Source: Stappia albiluteola (GTDB lineage Bacteria > Pseudomonadota > Alphaproteobacteria > Rhizobiales > Stappiaceae). From it: 64,000 nt of DNA. The DNA lies in the NCBI RefSeq assembly GCF_014050225.1, contig NZ_JACFXV010000061.1, positions 62,001-126,000 of the forward strand. Direction: 5' to 3'. The notes under the pieces were generated by a model. It did not search any database. It saw only the letters and a program-made list of their open reading frames with translations, and was not told the DNA's origin. Position numbers and translations under genes: made by a program. Of this stretch, positions 48,763 through 56,449 are shown piece after piece (within the stretch, counting starts at the first letter, position 1; the number at the start of each line of letters is the position of its first letter).

Positions 48763-49314
48763 TCAGCTTGCCGCCAGCTTGAGCAATTGTTGCTCTGTCT
48801 TGGCGGAAGACTGCATCTGGCGGCCGCGAACGTTGCGATAGGCAAGGCGATGGTGGAAGGCGCAATAGGAGCCGTTTCCTTCCGCATCGCGGCTGCAGAA
48901 ATGGAAATCCTCGGAACCGGGATCGCCAATCGGCCACTTGCAGGTGCGGCTGCCGAGCGTCATCAGCGTCACGCGATCCTCGGCCTGGACGTTTGCGTGT
49001 TCCGTTTCGAAGATCGAGCGTTCAATTTCGAGGTCTAGGCTGGTACGCAGGCGAATATCGGTCGCTGAAGACGAAACGCGCGCACTTGTGTGGCTCGAAC
49101 CGCCGATGCGGGCCAGCGAGGGCTGCGCCCTGACGCGGCGAGCCTTGGGCCGTGTGCTCGTCGAAGGCGTGCGCTTGGGCAGGTTGAGACGATGTGCCTT
49201 GCCGATGATGGCGTTTCGCGTAAACCCGTCCATCATGTAGGCGATCTGGCTGGCGCTGAGCCCCTGCAGCCAGAGTTTCTTGAGAAGGTCTTCCCGTTCG
49301 CTCGTCCATGCCAT
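48763..49314 (-). CDS. GcrA-family cell cycle regulator
   Basis: 183-aa protein of the GcrA family, which in Caulobacter works with sigma-70 at promoters methylated by CcrM at GANTC. The N-terminus (MAWTSEREDLLKKLW, GLSASQIAYMM, TRNAIIGKAHRLNLP) is the DNA-binding domain; the basic middle is disordered; the C-terminus with TCKWPIGDPGSEDFHFCSRDA and YCAFHHRLAY is the sigma-binding part. N-terminal departures such as YMMDGFTRNAII suggest it could be a paralog of the main GcrA. No close partners; its own terminator follows. Confidence 0.9.
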   Translation of the reverse strand: MAWTSEREDLLKKLWLQGLSASQIAYMMDGFTRNAIIGKAHRLNLPKRTPSTSTRPKARRVRAQPSLARIGGSSHTSARVSSSATDIRLRTSLDLEIERSIFETEHANVQAEDRVTLMTLGSRTCKWPIGDPGSEDFHFCSRDAEGNGSYCAFHHRLAYRNVRGRQMQSSAKTEQQLLKLAAS

Positions 49315-49586
49315 CGTTTTCGTCCAATCGCTTCAAGATCACGGAGATCTCAGGGCTCCGGGCACTACTTCGCCGTTTCCGGCCGGTCACCTGTGCGGCA
49401 ACCCGGCCGGGTCTTTCGAAAAACACCCGGTTTCCTGCATGGTTACGCTTTCATCCGGCCGCCATTCGCGGTGCGGATATCAGGAACGACTGACGAAACA
49501 CTGAAGCGCCGTTCCAAGCCATATGTAGATCATAGTGAACGAGTTCTTAATTGGTCAACGAGATGAAATTTTCAATCTGAACAATT

Positions 49587-50009
49587 CTATTTTCGCTCTA
49601 AAATTATTTTATCAAGAGAGTCAATGACGATATCCATTACTTCTTTTCTAAAATTATTATTAATTTTTTCGATCGTTTGATCCGGGTGTGCACTTCTGGC
49701 GTCGTTGGAAAGCCGGTAGATAATCTTGTTTTGAGCTTTGATCGCCTGCAGGACTCCTTCGAGGCACATTTTTTCAACGCGACGCCGTACAGTCGAGTAC
49801 GGAATTTCCGTCTCTTCAGATATTAAATCGATGTCGGCTTCAATATTATTTGCGTTTGCAATCGCTATTGTTGTCAAAATCATAAGTTGACTAAATTCCT
49901 TAACTTTATATTCTTCCATAAATCTGAAAGTCAAGCTGAAATACATCTCATAGATGTGTAAAATTCTACGTGCATCTGTAGATAACAGTTCGTTATCGTT
50001 ACTCATCAT
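49587..50009 (-). CDS. AT-rich winged-helix DNA-binding protein, unknown role
   Basis: 140-aa protein whose gene is far richer in A and T than its surroundings, with Asn, Ile, Lys and Glu-rich sequence; a sign of foreign origin. Residues about 60-100 (DIDLISEETEIPYSTVRRRVEKMCLEG) form a winged helix of the MarR/GntR-like kind, and the RL-rich wing follows. It aligns with the GC-rich gene next to it (50172-50606) over the helix-turn-helix (STVxRR). AGGA lies five bases before ATG 50009. Likely a small transcription regulator; no targets known. Confidence 0.75.
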   Translation of the reverse strand: MMSNDNELLSTDARRILHIYEMYFSLTFRFMEEYKVKEFSQLMILTTIAIANANNIEADIDLISEETEIPYSTVRRRVEKMCLEGVLQAIKAQNKIIYRLSNDARSAHPDQTIEKINNNFRKEVMDIVIDSLDKIILERK

Positions 50010-50171
50010 TCCAATCCTTGCGCCGGCACGTTTGTCATTTTGACGAACAAAAGGCGCTTGACTCGAAGTGATAGGTGTTCACCCGAACGTGTTGCCCCTT
50101 AGGTTGTGCAGATTCGATTCGCCTAACGGGCTGAGCGTGAAGTCTTTCTCCGGTTGCGGCGGAGAGTTCCG

Positions 50172-50606
50172 CTATTCCTCGTTCACGAGATCCCTCACCA
50201 GATTCATCAAGGTTCCGACCATTTCGGCGGTGATGTCCGCCCCACCGGGCCATCTTCCCTGTGGATTGTCGATGACGCCTGGACCTAGCCGGAACAGTGC
50301 GGCCTTGCCCTGCCGCTCCTTCACGACCAGACCGCGGTCCAGAAAACCGCGCAGCCTCCGTTCGACAGTGGATCGCGAGGCGCCGAGCTTCTCAGTCAGC
50401 AGTTCCGCGTCCATAGGTACGTCCCCGAGATCGCCGATCGCGATCAGCACGACCATCACAAGGTCAATCGGGTCCTCCGCGCCGAAGCGCTCCTTTAATT
50501 GAAGGGTGAGGTCGTAATAGGCGCCAAGCAGCCGCAGGGCGCGATGACGCGCGCCGGGGCTCTCACCCTGGTAATTCGTAGCCGGCGGCAAACAGCAAAC
50601 CCCCAT
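50172..50606 (-). CDS. Winged-helix DNA-binding protein, GC-rich relative of the neighbour
   Basis: About 144 aa. The region LGAYYDLTLQLKERFGAEDPIDLVMVVLIAIGD leads into a winged helix, DAELLTEKLGASRSTVERRLRGFLDRGLVVKERQGKAALFRL in outline, that matches the AT-rich gene beside it in length and layout. The start is uncertain: ATG 50606 has GAAGG about ten bases before it; 50627 and a GTG at 50738 are alternatives. It is transcribed in the same direction as the AT-rich gene. Function unknown beyond probable DNA binding. Confidence 0.7.
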   Translation of the reverse strand: MGVCCLPPATNYQGESPGARHRALRLLGAYYDLTLQLKERFGAEDPIDLVMVVLIAIGDLGDVPMDAELLTEKLGASRSTVERRLRGFLDRGLVVKERQGKAALFRLGPGVIDNPQGRWPGGADITAEMVGTLMNLVRDLVNEE

Positions 50607-50986: not shown

Positions 50987-51063
50987 TGGTACAGACGGGT
51001 GGATTCGAACCACCGACCTTCGGAGCCACAATCCGACGCTCTAACCAACTGAGCTACGTCTGC
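50987..51063 (-). tRNA. tRNA-His (GTG anticodon)
   Basis: On the minus strand the sequence folds as a tRNA: acceptor GCAGACG with CGTCTGT, D-loop AGCTCAGTTGGTTAGAGC, anticodon arm TCGGA-TTGTGGC-TCCGA with GTG, T-arm GGTTCGAATCC, and encoded CCA at 50989-50987. The first pair is G1:U72 and the discriminator is A73, not the usual C73. This is the pattern known from a clade of alphaproteobacteria whose histidyl-tRNA synthetase does not need G-1. Confidence 0.95.
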
Positions 51064-51355: not shown

Positions 51356-51856
51356 TCAGGCGGCTTTGAAAGCGGAGAAGGACTTTTCGAACGCGGCCTT
51401 GACCGGCTCGCCGACTTCGGTCGCGACCTTCACGGAAAAATCCTGCAGGTCCTTGACCTGGCCGGAAACCGCGTCGAACTGGCTGCGGGCGAAGGAGGAC
51501 TGCAGTTCGATCACTTCGGCCACCGTCTTGGCGCCGAGCACGTCCTTCATGAACTTGAAGGTAGCATCGGTGTTCGCCTTGGCGGCGTCGAGAGCCTTGA
51601 ACTGGAAGTCGAGTGCGCCCTGACGGGTGCTTTCGAAAGTGTCCTCCAGGAGGTCGGTGGCGTCTTCCGCAACCGTCTTCACCTTTGCGTAGGCGTCACG
51701 AGCCTGCTCGATGCTCTTTTCCGCCATTTCACGGGCGGCGGCGGGCACTTCAAGATTCGGCATGGAAAAAGCCTCGAAATTCGGGAAAGCGGCCTTGGCG
51801 GCAGCGGATTTGGTCGACTTGGCGCGCGGCGCCTTGGCAACGGTCGTCTCGGTCAT
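51356..51856 (-). CDS. Phasin family protein (PHB granule coat)
   Basis: Small helical protein of 166 aa that coats poly-3-hydroxybutyrate granules. A Lys/Ala/Thr-rich N-terminal tail (TVAKAPRAKSTKSAAAK) precedes FPNFEAFSMPNLEVPAAAREMAEKS and long amphipathic helices (DAYAKVKTVAEDATDLLEDTFES), the Phasin_2 pattern. AAGGAG lies eight bases before ATG 51856. A second phasin gene follows upstream at 52341-52724, same direction. Together with the CoA-transferase it points to storage-polymer metabolism. Confidence 0.92.
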   Translation of the reverse strand: MTETTVAKAPRAKSTKSAAAKAAFPNFEAFSMPNLEVPAAAREMAEKSIEQARDAYAKVKTVAEDATDLLEDTFESTRQGALDFQFKALDAAKANTDATFKFMKDVLGAKTVAEVIELQSSFARSQFDAVSGQVKDLQDFSVKVATEVGEPVKAAFEKSFSAFKAA

Positions 51857-52340: not shown

Positions 52341-52724
52341 TCAGTCCTTCACCGCCTTGGCGGCGTCCTGGGCGGTCCTGCTCGCCTTGTCGGAAATCTC
52401 GCGCGCCTGTTCTCCGAGGGCTTCCATCTGCTTGCGCAGATATTCCTGCTGCAGGTTCATGATCTGCTGCACATCATCGGCGCGAACGAGTTTCTGCGCG
52501 AATTCGAAGGCGGAGTTCATATGCTCCTCGGCATATTGCAGAGCCTTGCGGTTGATGTCGGAGGTGCCGGTCTGCATCGCGTTGGCAGAGCCTTCGACAT
52601 TGGACATGGCCTTCTGCGTCGCCGACATGAAGTCGTCGAAAGCCTTCTTCGCCTGATCCATGCTTTTGTCGGCGAAGTCACGCATCTGCTCCGGAATCTC
52701 GAAGCCGGTCTTCTTGTCCGCCAT
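52341..52724 (-). CDS. Phasin family protein, short
   Basis: 127-aa amphipathic helical protein, EQMRDFADKSMDQAKKAFDDFMSATQKAM followed by an Ala/Gln/Glu-rich helix set ending REISDKASRTAQDAAKAVKD, a short phasin. It lacks the Lys-rich N-terminal tail of the neighbouring phasin. ATG 52724 follows GGGAG by nine bases. It is about 480 bases upstream of the other phasin gene, so each probably has its own promoter. Confidence 0.9.
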   Translation of the reverse strand: MADKKTGFEIPEQMRDFADKSMDQAKKAFDDFMSATQKAMSNVEGSANAMQTGTSDINRKALQYAEEHMNSAFEFAQKLVRADDVQQIMNLQQEYLRKQMEALGEQAREISDKASRTAQDAAKAVKD

Positions 52725-53062
52725 GATGATGAATCTCCCTGTCTGTCGTCGGCTGCCGCGCGCAACGCAGCATCACCGCCGGGCGCCTGCGGCCAGCCTA
52801 TTTTCCCAAGGAAAGAGCATGCGCGACGAGGCCACATATTTCAACCGGATAGCGGAAAGAAGGCCATTAACCACATTGCAAGACAAGACCGGCACAGCAG
52901 GGAGGGCGACATGGACGATTCCGTTCGGACAGGATATTTACTGATTGTTTACCGACAATGGCCCTGCGGCTGGCTTGCGTAACACTCCGGTACTTGCCGA
53001 AAGGGCCGGATTTGCCGGAACAAGAGGCGCGGACTGAAAGCGGAGACGGAGTTGGAGTGCCC
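52725..53062. other. Divergent region between phasin and PdhS-like kinase genes
   Basis: 338 bases without a supported gene. It must contain the promoters of both flanking genes. A short AT-rich patch at 52929-52960 (GATATTTACTGATTGTTTACC) is the most promoter-like piece. The kinase reading frame is open back to 52958, but the start at 53063 is better supported. Confidence 0.5.
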
Positions 53063-56000
53063 ATGGACAGTCTGACGCGCGGCTATCTTGCCTTAAGCGG
53101 ACTTGCCGCGGCGAATTCCCTGCTCGGCGATCCGCGGCCCGCCTGGATCTGGGCGGGCGACGGCCAGTCGATCCTGTGGGCCAATGCGGCAGGTGCCGCG
53201 TTTTTCGGCGTGGAAGCGCTGGAAGACCTTGCCGCGATCAGCGGGCTTGCCCGCGCGCCGGCGCGTCCGCATATCGCACGCATCGCCCAGTCCGGGTCCG
53301 CCGACCGCGATACCATCGACAGGCTGCGCTTCTATCGGGGGCTCAGGGTGCTGATCCTGACCTGCCTGTGCCGGAGGCTGATCCTTCCGGACGGGATGAA
53401 GGGCGCGCTGATCGTGGCGACCGACATGCCGCGCACCGGGCAGGAGCCGGCCCCGCTCGATGCTCTCTGCCGTTTCGTCGCCGGGCGGACAAATACCGCC
53501 TGGCGCATCGGTCCTGGCGGAACCGCGCTTGGCAGCCATGGCCCTCTGGATCTTCCGGATCGCGAAGAGATCGCCAGCCTTTCGGCATCCGGCAAGCGGT
53601 CGCCCGTATTCGGGACGCTGCCCGTCGCCGATGGACGTCATGAAGCGGCGCTTGTCGCGCTCGACGAGGGCGAGAGCCTGCTCGTCGTTTCCGGCAACGC
53701 GGCTAAAGACGAAACCCATCCGAGCGAACCGGCTTTCAAGCCCGCGCCGCAACAGCCGGTGGACGAGCCGCAAACCCTTGCGGGCGAACCGGACGCGGAG
53801 GATGCGGCCGAAGAAAAGCACGTCGAGGATGAGGCGGAATTCGCGCGCCTGACGGAGGAAGTTGGTGGCGAGGCGCCGGCGGAGCCCGAACGGGCGTCCG
53901 GAACGGCAGGGGATGACGGAGAGATCATCGCGCCGCCGCATTCCGATTTCGAGTTCGAGGCGGCCGGGCGGCCGGTGCGTTTTGCCTGGAAGATGGATAT
54001 CGACCGCCGCTTTACCTTCCTGTCGCCGGAGTTCGAACAGGTGATGGGGCCTGCCGCCGCAGATATCGTCGGCGAGACATGGAGCGACGTCGCCCGGCGT
54101 TTCGGCCTGGACGAGGACGGCAGGATCGCCTCGGCTCTCGGCCGCCGCGACACCTGGAGCGGACGGACGGTGAACTGGCCGGTTACGGGCAAGGCGCTGC
54201 GCGTGCCGGTCGACATGGCGGCCCTGCCGGCCTTCGACCGCCGCCGGGTCTTCGAGGGGTTCCGGGGCTTCGGCGTCTGCCGCGCAGCCGATGCCTTCCC
54301 CGATCCGGAAGGTGAGGTGGTGGCCGTCGAGCACTTCAACGCACCCGCTGCCGAACCGGACGAGGCGACGGAGCCGGTGGAGGCCGGGGAAATCGCCGAG
54401 GCCCGCTCGGGCACCGACGAGCCGGCGGCGGAAGCTGTGACAGAGGTCGAGGAGGCGACCGGGATCGGCAAGGCATTTGCCGAGACGGCCGAGGAGCCGA
54501 CAGTCGAAGAGCAGGCCGCCGAGGCCGGGGCGCCTGACGAGGGCGTGGAAGTCGGCGAGCCTTTCGAGGAAGCTGCCGATCAGGCTGCATCGATTGCGGA
54601 GGACGCCGAGGCCTCCCGCCTGTCACGGCCGGAGCGGGAGGCCTTCCGCAAGATCGCCGAGGCGCTGGGCGGCAATTCGGTGGAGGACGCCGCGGCTGCG
54701 CCGGACACAGAGAAGGTCGTGCCTGAACCCGAAGGCGAGGCGGACGAGGCCGAAAGTCCGAAGGATATCGAAGCTGCCGACAGCAAGGTGACGCAGCTTT
54801 TTGCCGGCAAGCGGGCCCGCGGCGCCGCGCCGGAACCCGTGGCGGAGCCGGCCGTGCTGGAAGGCGGTGCGGAACTGGAGGCCTATGACGAGGCAGCGCG
54901 CCGGGCGAGGCAGCCCGACGCAGCGGCCCGCAAGTCCGGGCCTCCGACCGCGATCGAGCCGGCCATTCTCGACCGGCTGCCGATCGGGGTTGCCATCATC
55001 CGAGATCCGGACCTGCTTTATGCCAACGATACGCTGATCGACCTGCTCGGCTATGAGGATATCGCCGAGTTGCGCGCCGCCGGCGGCCTGGATGCGGTGT
55101 TCGGCGAACCCGAGGAATGGCCGAGCGCCAATGGCGATCCGGTGGAGGTGGAGCGGACCATGCGCGTGCGCCTCGCCGGCGGAGGCCTGAGGCCGGTGAA
55201 GGCGCGTCTCCATGCCGTTCCCTGGAACGGCGGGCGGGCGCTGATGATCTCCTTCCTCGACCGGCACGACCCGATCCATGAGGCGGCGGTCGACAGTCTG
55301 CATGTGGCGCAGACCGCGCTCGGCGAGGCGGAAGAGCAGATCGCCGAACTCGACGCGGTGCTGGAGACGGCGACCGACGGAGTTCTGGTGCTGGACGACA
55401 AGGGCACGATCCTGAAGGTCAATCGTTCGGCGGAAGCGCTTTTTTCCTCCGCCCGCGAGGAAATGGTCGGCGCGCCGCTCGCCCATTATCTCGCGCCGGA
55501 AAGCCACCGCAGCGCCGCCGACTATCTGGAAGGCCTCGCCCGCAACGGCGTGGCCAGCGTGCTGAACGACGGCCGCGAGGTGATCGGCCGGGTGCGCTCG
55601 GGCGGCCTCATTCCGCTGTTCATGACGATAGGCCGGGTCGGCAGCGATCCGGACGCGCCGAAATTCTGCGCGGTGCTGCGCGACATCACCCAATGGAAGA
55701 CGGCGGAAGAGGAACTGACCCACGCCAAGAAGCAGGCGGAGACGGCCAGCTCGCAGAAATCGGATTTCCTCGCCAAGATCAGTCACGAGATCCGCACGCC
55801 GCTCAACGCCATCATCGGCTTTTCGGAAGTCATGATGGAGGAGCGCTTCGGGCCGATCGGCAACGATCGCTACAAGGAATACCTGCGCGACATCCACAAG
55901 TCGGGCTCGCACCTGATGAGCCTCATCAACGACCTGCTGGATCTCTCCAAGATCGAGGCGGGCAAGCTCGACCTCACCTTCGAGGCGGTTTCCGCCAACG

Positions 56001-56449
56001 ACATTATCCGCGAATGCGTGGCGCTGATGCAGCCGCAGGCGAACCGCGACCGGGTCATCATCCGCGCCAGCCTGCCGGCATCGGTGCCAAATATCGTCGC
56101 CGATGGCCGGTCCGTGCGCCAGATCGTGCTGAACCTCCTGTCCAATGCCATCAAGTTCAACCAGCCGGGCGGTCAGGTGATCGTCTCCTCGGCGCTGGAG
56201 GATTCGGGCGAGGTGGTGCTGCGCGTGCGCGACACGGGCGTCGGCATGAGCGCCAAGGACCTGCAGGCCGCGATGGAGCCGTTCCGCCAGCTTCACACCT
56301 CGCGCCACGGCGGCGGTACCGGTCTCGGCCTGCCGCTGACGAAGGCGCTGGTCGAGGCGAACCGCGCGAGCTTCCGCATCGATTCGGAGCCCAACCACGG
56401 TACGCTGATCGAGATCACCTTCCCGCCGCAACGAGTGCTTGCCGAATAA
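53063..56449 (+). CDS. PAS-domain sensor histidine kinase of the PdhS/PleC/DivJ group
   Basis: 1128-aa kinase. GGAG at 53054-53057 sits five bases before ATG 53063. No transmembrane segment is seen. An N-terminal region (1-210) is followed by acidic, Ala/Glu/Pro-rich linkers at about 213-290 and 430-620, PAS-like domains around 295-400, 633-745 and 761-880, then HisKA with His908 (SHEIRTPLNAIIGFSEV) and an ATPase domain ending GGGTGLGLPLTKALVEANRASF and FPPQRVLAE. The HisKA-ATPase part matches kinases that control CtrA through DivK in Rhizobiales (PdhS, CbrA, PleC, DivJ). Which paralog this is cannot be decided here. Confidence 0.9.
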   Translation: MDSLTRGYLALSGLAAANSLLGDPRPAWIWAGDGQSILWANAAGAAFFGVEALEDLAAISGLARAPARPHIARIAQSGSADRDTIDRLRFYRGLRVLILTCLCRRLILPDGMKGALIVATDMPRTGQEPAPLDALCRFVAGRTNTAWRIGPGGTALGSHGPLDLPDREEIASLSASGKRSPVFGTLPVADGRHEAALVALDEGESLLVVSGNAAKDETHPSEPAFKPAPQQPVDEPQTLAGEPDAEDAAEEKHVEDEAEFARLTEEVGGEAPAEPERASGTAGDDGEIIAPPHSDFEFEAAGRPVRFAWKMDIDRRFTFLSPEFEQVMGPAAADIVGETWSDVARRFGLDEDGRIASALGRRDTWSGRTVNWPVTGKALRVPVDMAALPAFDRRRVFEGFRGFGVCRAADAFPDPEGEVVAVEHFNAPAAEPDEATEPVEAGEIAEARSGTDEPAAEAVTEVEEATGIGKAFAETAEEPTVEEQAAEAGAPDEGVEVGEPFEEAADQAASIAEDAEASRLSRPEREAFRKIAEALGGNSVEDAAAAPDTEKVVPEPEGEADEAESPKDIEAADSKVTQLFAGKRARGAAPEPVAEPAVLEGGAELEAYDEAARRARQPDAAARKSGPPTAIEPAILDRLPIGVAIIRDPDLLYANDTLIDLLGYEDIAELRAAGGLDAVFGEPEEWPSANGDPVEVERTMRVRLAGGGLRPVKARLHAVPWNGGRALMISFLDRHDPIHEAAVDSLHVAQTALGEAEEQIAELDAVLETATDGVLVLDDKGTILKVNRSAEALFSSAREEMVGAPLAHYLAPESHRSAADYLEGLARNGVASVLNDGREVIGRVRSGGLIPLFMTIGRVGSDPDAPKFCAVLRDITQWKTAEEELTHAKKQAETASSQKSDFLAKISHEIRTPLNAIIGFSEVMMEERFGPIGNDRYKEYLRDIHKSGSHLMSLINDLLDLSKIEAGKLDLTFEAVSANDIIRECVALMQPQANRDRVIIRASLPASVPNIVADGRSVRQIVLNLLSNAIKFNQPGGQVIVSSALEDSGEVVLRVRDTGVGMSAKDLQAAMEPFRQLHTSRHGGGTGLGLPLTKALVEANRASFRIDSEPNHGTLIEITFPPQRVLAE

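Follow-up and report, generated by a model that had tools for sequence, protein, structure and literature searches.

GcrA, together with CcrM, forms a master layer of the alphaproteobacterial cell cycle. The protein has been described as a sigma70 cofactor acting at promoters with m6A-methylated GANTC sites (PMC7403470), and the CtrA motif TTAA-N7-TTAA is reported to be functional across Alphaproteobacteria (PMC9437464). GcrA paralogues are already known, an example being Caulobacter gcrB (CCNA_01269), which is 44% identical to gcrA and, when expressed ectopically, partly compensates for gcrA (PMC3885167).

Here we analyse a locus in which a second gcrA gene, gcrA2, lies directly downstream of a tandem pair of genes for winged-helix proteins, B and A. 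On balance, we read B-A-gcrA2 as a single regulatory unit that Stappia and a sister genus have inherited vertically, in which a putatively self-regulated pair of MarR-fold proteins would control a CtrA-linked GcrA paralogue. The support for this reading, drawn from sequence, consists of the common distribution of the three genes, their fixed order, the homology between A and B, the key residues of GcrA2, an operator-like palindrome (O1) and a promoter that includes a CtrA-type box. A limited literature search did not find the linked unit B-A-gcrA2 described.

Positions of the features are collected in Table 1, where the window is the whole 64,000-nucleotide stretch of DNA that was analysed. 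The second gcrA gene, the operator-like palindromes and the CtrA-type box did not figure in the first-pass annotation of this DNA.

Table 1. Features of the B-A-gcrA2 locus and its flank, in window coordinates.
Feature	Position	Strand	Description
gcrA2	48763..49314	minus	GcrA-family protein, 183 aa, 272 bp downstream of A
Putative gcrA2 promoter	49532..49558	minus	TTGAC-N19-TAT, sigma70-like -35/-10
CtrA-type box	49535..49550	minus	TTAA-N7-TTCAC within the gcrA2 promoter spacer
O2	49571..49581	minus	Weaker palindrome TTCA-GAT-TGAA just past the A stop; TCA-N3-TGA core as in O1
Gene A	49587..50006	minus	AT-rich winged-helix protein, 139 aa (or 140 aa from 50009)
O1	50031..50047	minus	Operator-like palindrome TTCGTCA-AAA-TGACAAA, about 25-41 bp before the A start
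Gene B	50172..50606	minus	Winged-helix paralogue of A, local GC content, 17/17 genomes
tRNA-His	50987..51063	minus	Upstream neighbour of B; flank marker outside the unit
Two adjacent phasin genes	51356-51856, 52341-52724	minus	Beside tRNA-His

The winged-helix pair A and B

The helix-turn-helix motifs encoded in the window's genome read STVRRR in A and STVERR in B, and the wings end in YRL and FRL, respectively, bearing out the shared STVxRR signature and the wing ending in RL by which the first-pass annotation had linked these tandem, same-direction genes, both on the minus strand. Its further observation of one strongly AT-rich gene next to one with the local GC content also holds, A having 36.4% GC and B 62.1%. 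The AT-richest 420-nt stretches of the window fall over A (35.7% GC), the minimum elsewhere (outside 49000-50500) being 44.0%. The start of B is uncertain, with in-frame upstream starts up to 50738; from the chosen start, the protein has 144 residues.

A single BLASTP comparison aligned A with B at 26% identity over 93 residues (E 2e-10), and a comparison of their profiles, which are shallow, gave a probability of 98 and an E value of 2.4e-13 over 102 columns, in line with the earlier suggestion that the two proteins are homologous yet no recent duplicates. When the genome itself was searched with A at E<=1, B was the sole match besides A.

The first-pass annotation had recognised no described family for either protein, and our searches of Pfam and NCBIfam agree with it, since no model reached its curated cut-off for A or B. 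The nearest Pfam models, all sub-threshold, were TrmB and Penicillinase_R for A and HVO_A0261_N, MarR_2 and TrmB for B. The match of B to the HVO_A0261 N-terminal domain (PF25213) fell just under the gathering score (32.4 bits against 35), and its scores for MarR_2 (PF12802; 22.1 against 27 bits) and MarR (PF01047; 14.2 against 24.6 bits) were likewise below theirs; for A, MarR was absent among the listed Pfam hits.

AlphaFold models built from 13-row alignments were of moderate quality (pLDDT 76 for A, 66 for B). Both begin with a long helix, followed by a second helix, a winged helix-turn-helix and a final helix, an order that fits a MarR-like fold. The top Foldseek matches of A were mostly MarR proteins, none of them with E<=0.001. 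VIA-align, run for both A and B, produced no single winner among MarR, ArsR, DtxR and similar winged-helix proteins, with DtxR, IclR-type, MarR and ArsR rows within 1 Z of each other.

Distribution of the pair, the second gcrA gene and the history of the locus

A search of 87 Stappiaceae genomes found orthologues of A in 17, namely in every sampled member of genera g1 (three genomes) and g7 (14 genomes); the remaining 70 had none. B has the same distribution except for one additional hit, a lone and distant relative (24% identity) in G053, a genome of genus g6. This relative of B/A lies at about 7805-8233 of L079; its locus has 50% GC, and the genome lacks the unit. A tree of A and B that includes the G053 sequence was poorly resolved inside A, with unsettled bootstrap values, and was taken for the A/B split only.

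In an order-wide sample of 397 genomes, A/B orthologues occurred in 7, all belonging to g1 or g7, together with short, weak HTH matches in one further genome for A and in five for B; a wider A/B family was rejected because the sample outside g1/g7 yields such matches only. A contig scan with A retrieved 12 loci, which match 12 of the 17 genomes exactly in both genes of the pair; these named records comprise Stappia species including S. sediminis, Hongsoonwoonella zoysiae and one MAG labelled Rhodobacteraceae, S. sediminis and H. zoysiae being named records of the same genus as the window's host. Relatives of A were absent from the phage, plasmid and viral-contig collections, and relatives of B from the viral contigs. 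In the plasmid collection, B found just two short HTH matches, with 36-40% identity to ArsR proteins. PHROGs returned weak HTH matches only. A phage or plasmid origin of A/B was rejected on the basis of these missing relatives, which for B concern the plasmid and viral-contig collections.

The first-pass annotation had proposed following the synteny of the pair across Rhizobiaceae. The order B-A is indeed kept in all 17 genomes, while the host family proved to be Stappiaceae. Directly downstream of A, at a distance of 217-380 bp, every one of the 17 carries gcrA2, and hence two gcrA genes in all. Among the other 70 genomes, 62 have one gcrA, one gave no match and four have one gene in two pieces; G027, G059 and G063, without the B-A pair, carry a further gcrA copy or piece. 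Among 199 genomes of the order, two gcrA matches are listed for 12 outside g1/g7, and split genes may account for some of them, so a second gcrA is not unique to the Stappia group.

GcrA2 matches the Pfam GcrA family (PF07750) over residues 1-167 with 160.6 bits, above the gathering cut-off of 26.9, and scores 142.7 bits against the NCBIfam equivalog NF050816, below its cut-off of 280. Over the stretch that it shares with the main gcrA here, gcrA2 is 47% identical to that copy. GcrA2 keeps residues common to at least 95% of 72 GcrA sequences in both the DNA-binding and the sigma-binding parts, among them C125, W127, P128, G130, D131, P132, C140, C151 and H154, and it aligns with the solved Caulobacter GcrA structures (7ye1, 5yiu/5yix) over both domains. 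Consistent substitutions are V8E, V40A and, past the DNA-binding part, SG to PK.

Pairwise distances of A, B and gcrA2 intercorrelate at 0.92-0.95 (r 0.946 for A and B), compared with 0.75-0.81 for each against the main gcrA, as expected of a unit inherited together; plain shared descent may contribute. In two Stappia genomes, G075 and G086 (loci L067 and L078), the cassette has diverged well beyond what the main gcrA would lead one to expect, and part of the gcrA2 promoter block is gone; the whole unit may have been exchanged or may have changed faster.

How the unit came to the two genera is a separate matter. In a gcrA tree, the gcrA2 sequences form one clade (support 100/100) apart from the main gcrA genes of their hosts, themselves one clade, and with a midpoint root gcrA2 falls outside the clade of the family's main gcrA genes and has a long branch, a placement that may reflect either duplication or capture. 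A single capture of the whole B-A-gcrA2 cassette by the common ancestor, from a mobile element or another bacterium, followed by domestication in which A alone stayed AT-rich for its function, would fit this long branch, although duplication and fast change would produce it equally. The confinement to two genera and the existence of GcrA homologues on phages and plasmids also fit such a capture, whereas no donor was seen, the identity of gcrA2 to these homologues being just 28-51%, with some of the plasmid records corresponding to chromosome-sized replicons.

The flank of the locus bears on the same question. We sought tRNA-His in 20 genomes and compared 14 loci of other genera. In 10 of the 14, two phasin genes stand just upstream of tRNA-His in a stretch without B, A and gcrA2, an arrangement that speaks for capture; the remaining four (three of g3, one of g5) differ from the phasin-phasin-tRNA-His layout. 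Taken together, these points make capture a serious contender that we judge to fall somewhat short of probable. Among the 17 pair-bearing genomes, tRNA-His lies less than 0.5 kb from B in 10 and 1.2-6.1 kb away in five (L067, L071, L074, L075 and L078), and it was unseen within the fetched stretches of two. This variable interval suggests an insertion-prone spot upstream of the unit. A few kilobases from gcrA2, the window also encodes on the plus strand (52958-56449) a multi-domain histidine kinase of 1163 residues. PdhS is its best match in NCBIfam, at 799 bits where the cut-off is 2000; this PdhS-like protein is a relative of cell-division kinases, and relatives of it occur near tRNA-His in other genera.

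Composition of gene A

A has a GC content of 35-46% in all 17 genomes, a range that omits the 50% value for A of G077, the product of an overlong ORF, and is set in surrounding loci of 58-69%. At fourfold-degenerate sites, its GC (0.33-0.62) is under the lowest of 6-11 long neighbouring ORFs in every genome. Identity at these sites is 0.398 over all pairs of A, with 0.258 expected from composition alone, and falls to 0.303 between the two genera, with 0.256 expected (1025 site pairs). The corresponding between-genus values are 0.367 for B (0.349 expected) and 0.448 for gcrA2 (0.366 expected; 13 genomes in which the start was found). The synonymous letters of A have thus been largely replaced between genera while the gene has stayed AT-rich, showing that A is not un-ameliorated foreign DNA.

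The mean GC profile of the 17 genomes begins with 0.48 at the A start, drops to 0.32 between +400 and +500 and recovers to 0.59, the trough spanning the gcrA2 promoter together with the 3' end of A. GC3 by thirds declines along A (0.59, 0.49, 0.34) and is flat in B, and none of 145 neighbouring ORFs has a fall as large as the A mean; G005 does not show this fall, nor does A of the window itself, where AT-richness runs through the whole gene. The composition of A is best seen as actively maintained. Because the trough is on average deepest at the A 3' end and the gcrA2 promoter, AT-richness most likely serves either the DNA around that promoter or a low expression of A and is less likely to be a foreign mark. 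The first-pass annotation had also raised the idea of a regulator pair under different selection, and this is supported in part: the mean amino-acid distance between species is smaller for A (0.325) than for B (0.405), while A stays AT-rich.

The composition of A could instead be a by-product of its amino-acid make-up and of weak codon selection in a poorly expressed regulator, the DNA itself having no role. FYMINK residues account for 33-41% of A against 11-19% of B, regulators are often poorly expressed, and the even AT-richness along the window's own A points the same way. Against this explanation stand fourfold-degenerate sites that are AT-rich in all 17 genomes and a mean trough that runs past the A stop codon into the promoter, and B, likewise a regulator, is without such a pattern. 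We regard the by-product explanation as tenable but doubtful.

Operator-like sites, the putative gcrA2 promoter and the proposed circuit

The O1 consensus TTYGTCA-N3-TGACRAA occurs 5' of A in all 17 genomes with at most one mismatch and exactly in 14, compared with none in 200 mononucleotide shuffles; the 17 genomes are related, so that counts over them are non-independent, and the shuffle controls used here leave this kinship in. Once the starts are aligned, the distance from O1 to the A start is nearly constant. No conserved element was seen by eye in the 250 nt upstream of B.

O2 (TTCA-N3-TGAA) was perfect in six of the 17 genomes, and 13 have a copy with one mismatch or none within the first 160 nt, against shuffled means of 0.04 and 1.16 genomes, respectively. 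It stands at the A stop in 12 and is absent at its place in five; G081 has a copy elsewhere. The first ~60 bp after A are the best-conserved stretch of the A-gcrA2 gap. The pattern TTGAC-N19-TAT precedes gcrA2 in 15 of 17 genomes (shuffled mean 0.05), G075 and G086 lacking it as written, and TTAA-N7-TTMAY lies in the promoter spacer in 15 of 17 (shuffled mean 0.03). The strict form TTAA-N7-TTAA is found in eight, the window itself having TTCA instead. As a composite, promoter and box occur once in the window's genome with at most two mismatches and not in the control.

A box-like site with at most one mismatch also precedes the main gcrA, at -53 or -63 in 13 of 17 genomes (exact in two) and at -157 in G000, with none in G004, G005 and G077. 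The CtrA-type box therefore fails to set gcrA2 apart, and CtrA input, if real, is probably common to both gcrA copies.

GANTC sites are scarce upstream of gcrA2, with five found and 17.1 in shuffles. The B-A gap (window 50010-50171) has about 5 per kb, compared with 1 per kb in the loci; over the 17 gaps there are 15 sites in 2915 bp, with at least one in 10 genomes. As shuffled gaps give 11.0 (sd 3.2), GcrA-type control by methylation is only a lead. An alignment of the gaps also shows a DnaA-box-like TGTGGAWAA just after B in most of the Stappia sequences.

A and B might instead act on genes elsewhere, with gcrA2 being independent and nearby by chance. Searched for O1, the window's genome holds one perfect, three one-mismatch and 52 two-mismatch sites, and this total of 56, set against 18 in the reversed control, is a threefold excess that leaves room for targets elsewhere. 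In eight other genomes, there were 2-7 one-mismatch sites each beyond the pair, against 0-2 in the control. The A-gcrA2 gap of 0.2-0.4 kb and the separate promoter signal of gcrA2 would also suit independent genes. Yet perfect O1 is confined to the pair locus in the tested genomes that have it, being single-copy in the window's genome and in seven of the eight others (G005 has a one-mismatch copy at A only), and 10 of 12 inspected one-mismatch sites lie inside long coding-like frames, leaving two outside. With A-gcrA2 adjacency kept in 17 of 17 genomes across two genera, we consider this alternative unlikely.

Two of these 10 in-frame sites share the same letters, ATTGTCACCATGACAAA. In G000 (L082, about 1501-1517), this one-mismatch O1-like palindrome lies over the start codon of a gene for a GntR-aminotransferase-type regulator, which we take to be of MocR type, and the letters recur over a start codon in G005 (L236). 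The palindrome is possibly the regulator's own site.

In the circuit that we propose, the steps of binding and output are inferred from the sequence features. A and/or B would bind O1 as MarR-fold dimers and repress A, and they could influence gcrA2 through O2, which adjoins its -35 element. CtrA at the box may exclude RNA polymerase from the gcrA2 promoter; since CtrA occupancy would block the polymerase, gcrA2 would presumably be made when CtrA is low. GcrA2 itself might then act at methylated GANTC promoters as an alternative cofactor of sigma70, and a signal sensed by A/B could in this way adjust the cell-cycle programme. An AT-binding protein, with MucR as a candidate, may silence or activate around the gcrA2 promoter. 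Counting against the proposal, as do the scarce GANTC sites upstream of gcrA2 and the inexact conservation of O2 and the box, the DnaA-GcrA-CtrA circuit of Caulobacter is reported not to be conserved throughout Alphaproteobacteria (PMC2877005).

In Sinorhizobium fredii, MucR recruitment is described as rising with AT content, some of the targets being genus-core genes (PMC8857273). By analogy, AT-dependent silencing of the A/gcrA2 junction is a testable idea. Taken further, the coding sequence of A could be dual-use DNA, an AT-rich cis-acting platform, on average most AT-rich towards its 3' end and running on into the gcrA2 promoter, that gates gcrA2 and whose composition is conserved while its letters are not. 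Its binder might be an H-NS-like silencer (such as MucR) or A/B, and the A/B pair could be the local counter-silencer of a cell-cycle side circuit, found only in Stappia and the sister genus here. We offer this elaboration as speculation with little claim to being right as a whole.

The arrival of A as a foreign, un-ameliorated AT-rich relative beside a resident B, which the first-pass annotation had put forward, has in its favour a strongly AT-rich gene in a GC-rich genome and a variable tRNA-His-B interval of the kind seen at insertion-prone sites, but we discard it as highly improbable, because the two genes agree in distribution (17 of 17, against 0 of 70) and in order and have correlated distances, the fourfold sites of A are near-randomised between genera and still AT-rich, and no relatives of A were found in the phage, plasmid and viral-contig collections. 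A is a clear AT-rich gene in a GC-rich genome that is not recently foreign, its composition held while its synonymous letters were largely replaced, and its case bears on the common calling of horizontal transfer from GC content.

Returning to the inherited B-A-gcrA2 unit, an extra GcrA limited to two genera, with its own DNA-binding pair and a CtrA-type promoter, would offer a compact natural case for the wiring of a new input into a cell-cycle circuit. Its parts can each be set beside a described system. Like MarR/TrmB/ArsR-type repressors, A and B are predicted to have a long helix, a winged helix-turn-helix and a C-terminal helix, and MarR proteins are among the Foldseek (A) and VIA-align (A and B) matches, as are MarR_2, TrmB and ArsR among their sub-threshold profile hits; they differ in reaching no family cut-off. 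The plasmid partition proteins AspA and TubR, both centromere-binding winged helices, are also similar, AspA being the best PDB sequence match of the A profile (E 1.2e-4) and TubR ranking second for the B profile (E 0.008) behind NmtR (E 5.6e-5), yet for A the winged helix-turn-helix alone aligns, and perfect O1 is a single site and not an array. The putative gcrA2 promoter resembles CtrA-controlled alphaproteobacterial promoters in containing a TTAA-N7-TTAA-like box and departs from them in that the box is exact in just eight of 17 genomes. Compared with Caulobacter crescentus GcrA, GcrA2 shows a match along the entire family profile and keeps the functional parts, whereas it is an extra copy in two genera, with fixed substitutions and a score under the equivalog cut-off. 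A further parallel is GcrB, for both are second GcrA copies of similar identity to the main copy (44% for GcrB and 47% for gcrA2); in the passages on GcrB that we draw on (PMC3885167), no winged-helix partners are mentioned, whereas gcrA2 follows the pair B-A.
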